The notes below the pieces were generated by a model. The model made no database searches. It was not told the DNA's origin and was given only the letters and a program-made list of their open reading frames with translations. The translations under genes and the position numbers were made by a program. Shown here piece by piece: positions 5,512 through 10,085 of a DNA stretch of 64,000 bases. The stretch lies in the IMG/VR virus record IMGVR_UViG_3300020470_001313, positions 1 through 64,000 of that record; one strand, written 5' to 3'. This stretch comes from a virus. How positions within the stretch are numbered: the first letter of the stretch is position 1; the number at the start of each line of letters is the position of its first letter.

Positions 5512-6141
5512 TTATATTGAAAGGTTCATGATACAGATAGATCTAATTTCTCCTGGTCCTGTAGGACCGATAGCATGGAAGTGTTTACCATTAAAGACTG
5601 CTATCTTACCACGCTTAGGAGTTATACGATGTTTGATAGTAAGTTCTTGTTTATCAAAAACTGTACTACGATAACCTGCACCAACGGAGACGGAATTAAA
5701 ACCGCCTCCTTTCTTACAATAGTATATATCTATGTCATCATCGGGGTTCCATTCATCCTCAAAGACAAAGGTGTCACCAGTAGCATCATTAAGATACATC
5801 ATAAAGATTAGGTGAGGACACTTAGCATCTAGGTGTGGGTCTTGGTATTCGTATCCAGGTATATGATATGTGTTGTTAAGACATGCTCTAATAATACTTT
5901 TATATTTGATATCATTCTTCTTACAAAACTCATCCATGATCTCAAAAAAGAATGGATAAATTTCAGAGACAGGATTAACTTTCCTAATCTCCTTAGCATG
6001 ATCATTTCTTTCTACCAATAGGTGTTGGTAGTATGGAAACTCAGGTGATGAAGACTGAGTATGATAATAAGGTATACGATCTACCCTCTTGTCAAGGTAG
6101 TCAAGTTTCTCTAAGGGTATACCATTCTCATCTTCAATCAT
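5512..6141 (-). CDS. 2OG/Fe(II) oxygenase, paralogue A
   Basis: This 209-aa protein has the iron-binding H-x-D in DPHLDAKCPH, the distal His in FNGKHFHAIGPTG and a 2OG-binding Arg in EIRSICIMNL. The FPYYQHLLVERN stretch, the NNTYHIP stretch and the C-terminal third match the next gene closely, so the pair arose by tandem duplication. The substrate is unknown. Confidence 0.8.
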   Translation of the reverse strand: MIEDENGIPLEKLDYLDKRVDRIPYYHTQSSSPEFPYYQHLLVERNDHAKEIRKVNPVSEIYPFFFEIMDEFCKKNDIKYKSIIRACLNNTYHIPGYEYQDPHLDAKCPHLIFMMYLNDATGDTFVFEDEWNPDDDIDIYYCKKGGGFNSVSVGAGYRSTVFDKQELTIKHRITPKRGKIAVFNGKHFHAIGPTGPGEIRSICIMNLSI

Positions 6142-6722
6142 GCTAATAAATTAAAAATACAAATGCTTCTATGCTCACCGATACCAGTACATCTATTGGT
6201 ATGATAATGCTTACCATTAAAGACTGCTATCTTACCACGCTGAGGAGTTATCTCTTTCTTAATAGTGAAGTGTTTACCTTGCTGACTCTGTAGATACATT
6301 CCCTTATCATTTTCAGGATAAGTCTCATCAAATACTACAGTGTTACCACTAGCATTATTAAGATACATTATAAGAACGTAGTGAGGAACCTTAGCATCAA
6401 CATGAGGGTCACCGTATTCAAATGGTAAGTGATAGGTATTGTTAATACATCCTCTAATAATAGATCTATACTTTAGATCCCACTTCTCCATGAAGTTATG
6501 CATGATAGTCCAGAAGAAAGGGAATGCATCAGAGCATGGTTCTACTGGTATAGTCTCATCAATCTTCTCGTTTCTTTCTACTAATGGATGTTGGTAATAA
6601 GGAAAAGACGGTGACGTTGACATGCGGTACGTGAAAGGCATGCCAGAAAACTTTGACTCAATAATAAGTAAGTCAGCTTCATTGATTCCATTAGGATCCT
6701 CCAGAATTTTGTTCAATGTCAT
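6138..6722 (-). CDS. 2OG/Fe(II) oxygenase, paralogue B
   Basis: The 194-aa paralogue of the gene immediately downstream conserves H-x-D (DPHVDAKVPH), the distal His (FNGKHYHTNRCTG) and Arg (EHRSICIFNL). The ATG at 6722 is preferred to a TTG two codons earlier. It is coupled to paralogue A by an ATGA overlap. A glycine-rich insertion in paralogue A before the second half of the core is missing here, which suggests different substrates. Confidence 0.8.
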   Translation of the reverse strand: MTLNKILEDPNGINEADLLIIESKFSGMPFTYRMSTSPSFPYYQHPLVERNEKIDETIPVEPCSDAFPFFWTIMHNFMEKWDLKYRSIIRGCINNTYHLPFEYGDPHVDAKVPHYVLIMYLNNASGNTVVFDETYPENDKGMYLQSQQGKHFTIKKEITPQRGKIAVFNGKHYHTNRCTGIGEHRSICIFNLLA

Positions 6723-6927
6723 ATTCAATCACGATTTTTTTACTAGATCTACCCATGCTATTTAAAGTAGAAGTATGTTGTATAGTACCACCTATCTGAT
6801 CTACAATCTTTTCAAGTTTTTCCTTCCAAGTAAGTGGTTTAATACTATCTCCAGTGACTGTCGTACGACATTCCTCTGGTGTACATGCGAAGAAGATATT
6901 CTCTTCTGGTTCTAAGTTACCATGCAT
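6691..6927 (-). CDS. Hypothetical protein, 78 aa
   Basis: A soluble protein with an early ACTPEEC cysteine pair and a mixed charged C-terminus. No domain recognised. Its ATG overlaps the stop of ho1 by one base, and its end overlaps the oxygenase start by 32 nt. Confidence 0.55.
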   Translation of the reverse strand: MHGNLEPEENIFFACTPEECRTTVTGDSIKPLTWKEKLEKIVDQIGGTIQHTSTLNSMGRSSKKIVIEYDIEQNSGGS

Positions 6928-9833: not shown

Positions 9834-9992
9834 TCAGTCGGCATTTGCGTCCCAACATCCGTCCGTTTCTTCTTTCACAATCTGAATCATCTCAGATCGT
9901 GTCTCTTCTTCCACCTTATACTTACTCATTTTATCAACGAGTAGGTGTGCGTCAGAACAGGATAAAGAAGTAGCGATTAAAATAGGAATCAT
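9834..9992 (-). CDS. Small exported or lipoprotein-like protein under riboswitch control, 52 aa
   Basis: MIPILIATSLSCSDAHLLVD... has a short hydrophobic start with a Cys at position 12, like a mini signal or lipobox, then a helical acidic part ending GCWDANAD. Its ATG directly follows the candidate glutamine-riboswitch aptamer and switch hairpin. Short ORFs in this position gave the Downstream-peptide RNA its name. Molecular function unknown. Confidence 0.7.
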   Translation of the reverse strand: MIPILIATSLSCSDAHLLVDKMSKYKVEEETRSEMIQIVKEETDGCWDANAD

Positions 9993-9997
9993 GGGAT

Positions 9998-10047
9998 GAA
10001 CGTATCCGTTCCGTGTCGGCTTACTTGCGTCTCCTTAGAGATGAACG
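9998..10047 (-). ncRNA. Candidate glutamine riboswitch (Downstream-peptide / glnA-like RNA)
   Basis: On the minus strand the aptamer runs from CGTTC (10047-10043) to GGAACG (10012-10007). Between them are a TCTC-TAAG-GAGA hairpin and the conserved-looking GACGCAAGTAAGCC. These features match what I know of the glnA and Downstream-peptide RNAs of marine cyanobacteria and phages, which bind glutamine. The same GAACG can instead pair with a second CGTTC at 10002-9998, forming a GATA-loop hairpin 5 nt before the start codon. Two mutually exclusive helices are what a translational switch needs. Confidence 0.75.
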
Positions 10048-10053
10048 TTAAAA

Positions 10054-10085
10054 GGTATGTTAGCATACCCACATCTATTTATCAA
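10054..10085 (-). promoter_or_regulatory. Riboswitch promoter with inverted repeat over the -10
   Basis: TTGATA (10085-10080), 17-nt spacer, TGC-TAACAT (-10 at 10062-10057) on the minus strand. A 6-bp inverted repeat GGTATG-CTAA-CATACC (10069-10054) covers the -10 and could be an operator. Confidence 0.55.

Follow-up and report, generated by a model that had tools for sequence, protein, structure and literature searches.

The window analysed here, a 64,000-nucleotide stretch of a 150.6-kb viral record (IMGVR_UViG_3300020470_001313), carries T4-like cyanophage genes, including nrdA and nrdB, talC and a heme-oxygenase-like gene (talC identified by Pfam, the others by reading). By eye, two adjacent paralogous genes at 5512-6728 resemble 2OG-Fe(II) oxygenases. 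The locus of interest lies on the minus strand, where a promoter region (10085-10057) and an aptamer-like RNA (10049-10003) precede a 52-aa ORF (9992-9834; phrog_504, E = 1.4e-12) and a 41-aa gene of the DUF4278 type (9793-9668). The latter matches PF14105 at 27 bits, against a cut-off of 25.3, and phrog_5049 with E = 8.6e-15.

A sequence-only reading had proposed a glutamine riboswitch at this position, in which the aptamer and a start-codon hairpin exclude each other. All of the sequence features it described are present on the minus strand: a CGTTC (10047-10043) facing a GAACG (10011-10007), an internal hairpin (10041-10038/10033-10030), the GACGCAAGTAAG core, and a second CGTTC (10002-9998) that precedes the start codon of the 52-aa ORF (ATG at 9992) by 5 nt. 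The carrier is indeed a phage, the element sitting in a cyanophage, and the inverted repeat reported over the -10 (GGTATG-CTAA-CATACC, 10069-10054) is found as well. The observations were thus confirmed, and the interpretation placed on them is partly supported by what follows.

The promoter is composite. A -35-like TTGATA (10085-10080) is overlain by a late-type TAWATA box, here GATAAATA (10083-10076), and a -10-like TAACAT (10062-10057) falls inside the inverted repeat. This arrangement is conserved in homologous upstream regions, with a sigma70-like promoter in 62 of 78 (0-4 in shuffles), a TAWATA box in 67 of 78 (4-14 in shuffles) and a stem of at least 6 bp in 57 of 76 (shuffle mean 8.7), while the sequence of the inverted repeat itself differs between phages. 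Transcripts made from the late box would begin with this hairpin.

Both RNA families named in the earlier reading return an Infernal match at this spot, and both matches fall below their cut-offs. Using cmscan, RF01739 (glnA RNA) scores 31.4 bits against a gathering cut-off of 35 at 10049-10003 (E = 8.3e-5 in 701 nt, 0.0076 in 64 kb), a score to be read with the fact that the composite element described below cannot be scored across its ORF insert; RF01704 (Downstream-peptide RNA) scores 26.5 bits against 33. Relatives without an ORF insert pass the RF01739 cut-off at 41.4, 38.8, 38.1, 36.7, 35.5, 35.4 and 35.3 bits, with other relatives at 28.9-33.3 bits, and for this reason we place the RNA in the glutamine-riboswitch family. 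P1, P2 and the conserved junction letters match RF01739 with one exception, as every phage element seen has CGCAA where RF01739 has CGGAA. Comparison with relatives therefore upholds the proposed likeness to glnA RNAs; the likeness to Downstream-peptide RNAs is not supported, the RF01704 cut-off never being reached among the loci tested (best relative, 31.8 bits).

A search with the core pattern GACGCAAN{5,14}GGAACGG revealed a second copy that the sequence-only reading had missed. The window has exactly two matches to it, on the minus strand at 10031-10006 and 9851-9826, whereas 100 shuffles have none; the same two copies, 180 nt apart, are the only ones in the entire 150.6-kb record. The second overlaps the 3′ end of the 52-aa ORF. 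The aptamer-like RNA is one half of a larger two-core element. All cores examined are of two types, A (CGCAAGTA...) and B (CGCAAAN...RAAGGAACGG), with A preceding B and 2-5 nt between cores in the cyanophages examined. Among the loci listed, a CGTTC follows within 2-5 nt of the core in 89/89 type A cases and 0/113 type B cases, the B total including a few chance matches.

Comparative evidence indicates that the two cores form one interlocked double junction. The A segment following CGCAAGTA is complementary to the B segment preceding RAAGGAACGG, generating a long-range helix, P3, which in the window joins AGCCGACA (10021-10014) to UGCCGACU (9843-9836). Compensatory exchanges are abundant (AGUCG/CGACU, AGUCA/UGACU, AUUCG/CGAAU, GGACG/CGxCC and AGCCC/GGACU), and a further form, AGCCGACU/AGCCGACU, stands against the window's own. 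Positions k=0, 1 and 4 pair in 82/82 sequences and k=3 in 81/82, with exchanges A-U/G-C, G-C/U-A and G-C/A-U/C-G; many sequences have A.C oppositions at k=2 and k=5. When 47 ORF-free elements are aligned, 25 cells are doubly changed where shuffles give 8.1 (0/500 reaching the count, in controls that ignore relatedness), slid versions of the helix fail, and 96.6% of cells are paired across the whole double-junction structure. A pattern for GGACG-type P3 found no match, and must have been too strict, since such elements exist (L091, L148).

In the resulting model, the outer junction would consist of P1, P2a and P3, and the inner junction of P3, a hairpin P1′ and P2b. Outer P1 would pair a1 (CGUUC, 10047-10043) with the GAACG (9831-9827) of a2′ (GGAACG, 9832-9827); it encloses the P2a hairpin (UCUC/GAGA, 10041-10030), which appears in the Rfam alignment and has an ORF in its loop in other phages, and the conserved core A, CGCAAGUA (10029-10022). 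Beyond the 5′ strand of P3 lies P1′, GAACG-GATA-CGUUC (10011-9998), composed of a1′ and a2, followed by P2b, whose strands UCCCA (9996-9992) and UGGGA (9854-9850) flank the ORF. Core B, CGCAA (9849-9845), then leads into the 3′ strand of P3.

P1 strands showed no deviants in 142 cases, even using patterns that left these strands free, so that the case for P1 pairing is made by energies, RNAalifold and the Rfam alignment instead of covariation. Unguided RNAalifold draws both outer P1 and the inner hairpin. Likewise, the RF01739 model pairs a1 with a2′ and accommodates 39-42 nt as an insertion within P3 (41.4, 41.0, 38.6 and 37.0 bits), such that in several relatives above cut-off Rfam's own alignment treats the inner junction as inserted sequence. 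The 5′ CGTTC had been thought to close with the nearby GAACG; its best partner is instead the second GGAACG, ~215 nt further on. Similarly, the GAACG/CGTTC hairpin proposed as a mutually exclusive fold is probably not one: its loop spans 3-6 nt in 89/89 cases, its pairing probability in the window is 0.98 in the unconstrained ensemble, and it forms part of the comparative fold. Most likely this hairpin belongs permanently to the double junction, and an anti-aptamer role for it was rejected in view of P3 covariation. A start-to-start pairing seen in the window fold (CCAUGAU/AUCAUGG) was also rejected, being absent from relatives inspected by eye. By nearest-neighbour energies, the double junction is less stable than the free ensemble, by 11 kcal/mol in the window and by an average of 6.7 kcal/mol in 90 ORF-free leaders. 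Binding energy alone is unlikely to cover this gap of 6.7-11 kcal/mol, and tertiary or kinetic effects would be needed.

A rival reading of this region is a tandem of glutamine aptamers that fold independently, a1:a1′ and a2:a2′, and share the a1′:a2 hairpin as a mutually exclusive competitor. RF01739 does match each core alone, the a1′:a2 hairpin is always possible, and tandems are well precedented, with 157 glutamine doublets known (PMC9481103) and further examples in SAR86/SAR92 bacteria. Against this, the mid-segments of A and B covary as a single long-range helix, and 29 sequences retain the long-range P3 while the P3 hairpins that each aptamer would need are disrupted. The tandem model is higher in energy than the double junction in 109/109 ORF-free elements, and its P1 pairs appear in 0/109 minimum free energy folds. 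Moreover, core A lacks GAA and core B lacks GUA, whereas the outer composite has both. The phage element therefore fails to provide a P1 and P3 for each aptamer; a simple tandem was rejected on P3 covariation and energies, and we regard the version with a shared competitor as improbable.

One P2 strand of the double junction immediately precedes the ORF start and the other is at the ORF end, yet the two covary. In 60 divergent type B cases, pairs 1-4 of P2b form in 60/60, and pair 4 is C-G in 46, U-A in 8, U-G in 4 and A-U in 2, a count reached by 0/1000 shuffles. For P2a, pair 3 is C-G in 12 and U-A in 6 of 18 type A cases, and pair 4, with U-A, A-U, G-C and C-G exchanges, is paired in 15/18 (0/1000 shuffles). 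These shuffle controls, too, ignore relatedness. Mapped on protein trees, the P2 exchanges are repeated and none runs the wrong way, with few on well-supported branches. The whole AUG falls inside contiguous P2 in 13/18 type A and 13/60 type B cases; in the window only the A of the AUG does so, as the last base of the 5′ strand. At the other end, the 3′ strand of P2b lies in the final codons, and the stop codons keep to set positions at the core or within it (0/+11 for A, +15/+18 for B). The window's UGA (9836-9834) overlaps P3 and J3/1.

Substitution patterns indicate that these nested ORFs are coding and under purifying selection, with pS of 0.65 and pN of 0.26 in loop B and pS of 0.65 and pN of 0.22 in loop A. 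The pN value is below pS in 277/277 homologue pairs of the 52-aa ORF, and in every pair compared for both loops. Chance overprinting is ruled out by these ratios. The two ORF families, which share a hydrophobic N-terminus and a pair of conserved cysteines, are probably related (hhalign probability 76%). One family occupies loop A in L098 and loop B in L061 and L084, which suggests that ORFs have been exchanged between loops. The nested 52-aa peptide had no Pfam or defence-system match, and AlphaFold predicts a two-helix hairpin with modest confidence (pLDDT 73.6).

The element is widespread in cyanophages. The 52-aa ORF family is encoded by 52 viral contigs, and a pattern scan returned at least 120 further core-bearing loci. 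Among the loci listed, an ORF is found in loop B only in 42, in both loops in 20, in loop A only in 8 and in neither in 12, the remaining elements being incomplete or partly matched. A 52-nt query spanning the A/B junction matched 423 public phage records, all of them cyanophages. No annotated feature lies under the best of these matches among deposited phages; in P-SSM7, P-SSM4, P-HM1 and P-HM2 the nested ORFs have their own annotations, as hypothetical proteins. In P-SSM4 (L178), a manA RNA (RF01745) sits directly upstream of the nested-ORF riboswitch region; strong manA matches were obtained at L178:715-900 and L095:1640-1839.

A cellular origin was rejected, as the phage-type core occurs in about 300 Synechococcales-family genomes only at chance level, plus one contig with a phage-type element. 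Within 61 genomes of one genus, RF01739 found only the genome bearing that contig, and phrog_504 found none, in a search run without a positive control. CGCAA-core matches in genome assemblies resemble cyanophage contigs. An assembly of Nonlabens xiamenensis includes a 188-kb contig (NZ_RMVE01000006.1) that carries a cyanophage-type element and may be a contaminating cyanophage genome. A 189-kb contig deposited under Prochlorococcus AG-418-C09 (QCLS01000003.1) probably represents a phage from an infected single cell, and an IMG/VR record of identical length (189106 nt) carries the element as this contig does.

Genomic context provides a clue regarding the regulated gene. As with RF01739 elsewhere, the element lies upstream of a DUF4278 gene; a DUF4278-type start motif was automatically found after 78/113 B cores, and most other genuine B cores have a TYRGV motif behind an N-terminal extension by eye. 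The motif CURAAG runs from the end of P3 through J3/1 into the start of a2′. Its complement, CUUYAG, lies over the DUF4278 Shine-Dalgarno (SD) sequence in 173/248 leaders, and a one-base shift adds 34 to give 207/248; every other offset tested yields zero, and shuffled leaders average 5.8 with a maximum of 11. The R and Y positions covary (A-T 98, G-C 65, G-T 65, A-C 1). Within core CGCAAACGACTRAAGG, R = A is accompanied by CUUUAG in 52/52 and R = G by C in 32/42. In the window, CUGAAGG (9837-9831), which overlaps P3, J3/1 and P1, pairs at 6 of 7 positions with CCUACAG (9810-9804), overlapping the SD AGGAG (9805-9801). The helix has one A.A mismatch and a probability of 0.93 in the free ensemble. 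With the double-junction fold imposed, predicted SD accessibility goes up in 25 and down in 17 of 90 leaders, and the rise is not consistent.

The CURAAG/CUUYAG covariation at the DUF4278 SD suggests a translational ON switch, and type 1 and type 2 glutamine riboswitches have been reported as activating and linked to DUF4278 genes (PMC6316151). The translational switch envisaged by the sequence-only reading is thus plausible. Its target is another matter, as the conserved and covarying competitor sits at the ribosome-binding site of the DUF4278 gene (9793-9668) and not at that of the 52-aa ORF.

The ligand is probably L-glutamine. Specificity drift within an identical architecture has to be considered because CGCAA replaces CGGAA in all phage cores and GUA is missing from core B; the core change is systematic in every phage element seen. 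Relatives above the RF01739 cut-off, a DUF4278 link as in known glutamine riboswitches and the CGCA at a comparable place in the glutamine-II consensus argue for glutamine, and we consider another ligand unlikely, if somewhat less so than the tandem arrangement. A ligand-free leader has the smallest share of our confidence. Here, ribosomes on the nested ORF would open the aptamer and couple the two genes in the manner of an attenuator, as the fixed stop positions might suggest; a translated ORF in the M. tuberculosis metE B12 aptamer does affect its gene (PMC11260477). However, many phages with both loops ORF-free keep the full fold and the SD competitor.

Overall, we consider it likely that this T4-like cyanophage carries a translational ON riboswitch of the RF01739 lineage, built from two back-to-back three-way junctions. 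Without ligand, the SD hairpin would hold and DUF4278 would be off; ligand would stabilize P3, the joining segments and P1, releasing CURAAG and freeing the SD. A weaker proposal is that P2, when closed over the nested ORF, hides its start codon. If so, the nested peptide would be made under conditions in which DUF4278 is not, and vice versa, and the sensor would contain a gene under its own control, the two genes being set oppositely by host nitrogen. We offer this extension tentatively, with rather more doubt than belief. The DUF4278 gene is related to the N-terminus of the glutamine-synthetase inactivating factor IF17, and if it acts similarly, it would let the phage adjust glutamine synthetase or nitrogen use in its host. 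These abundant marine viruses appear to sense a nitrogen-linked signal, and a relative of a glutamine-synthetase brake may be under their control.

The closest known system is the RF01739 type 1 glutamine riboswitch, with which the phage element shares P1 (CGUUC/GAACG), P2, the AAGUA and GAAGGAACG junctions, the DUF4278 association and presumed ON translational control. It differs in having two junctions on one P3, a CGCAA core and ORFs in the P2 loops, and in being carried by phages. Glutamine-II RNAs (RF01704) have a similar 5′ half, short downstream genes and a CGCA motif, but the second hairpin around the RF01704 pseudoknot is not formed in the phage element. Phage-borne RF01739 has been noted in methylophage Melnitz and, as a glnA RNA, in cyanophage S-CREM1 (PMC9004378, PMC9964418), in accounts that do not give architecture, nested ORFs or a DUF4278 target; the 99-nt S-CREM1 match may be the same composite. 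In the open-licence literature, we found glnA RNA named in cyanophages without analysis, and did not find the double-junction/nested-ORF architecture or DUF4278 in cyanophages. The M. tuberculosis metE B12 riboswitch also bears an ORF in an aptamer extension. That ORF has limited conservation (PMC11260477), whereas the phage peptides are conserved across phages and their ORF ends form a covarying aptamer helix. The double-junction fold, with whole coding sequences in aptamer loops, widens the range of riboswitch shapes. Finally, tandem glutamine riboswitches, catalogued as doublets (PMC9481103), likewise have two glutamine-type cores per leader. In the cellular tandems of SAR86/SAR92 the CGGAAGUA cores are complete, every core forms a P3 hairpin of its own and nested ORFs are absent, whereas the phage cores are interlocked, and some catalogued tandem aptamers could likewise be single interlocked structures.
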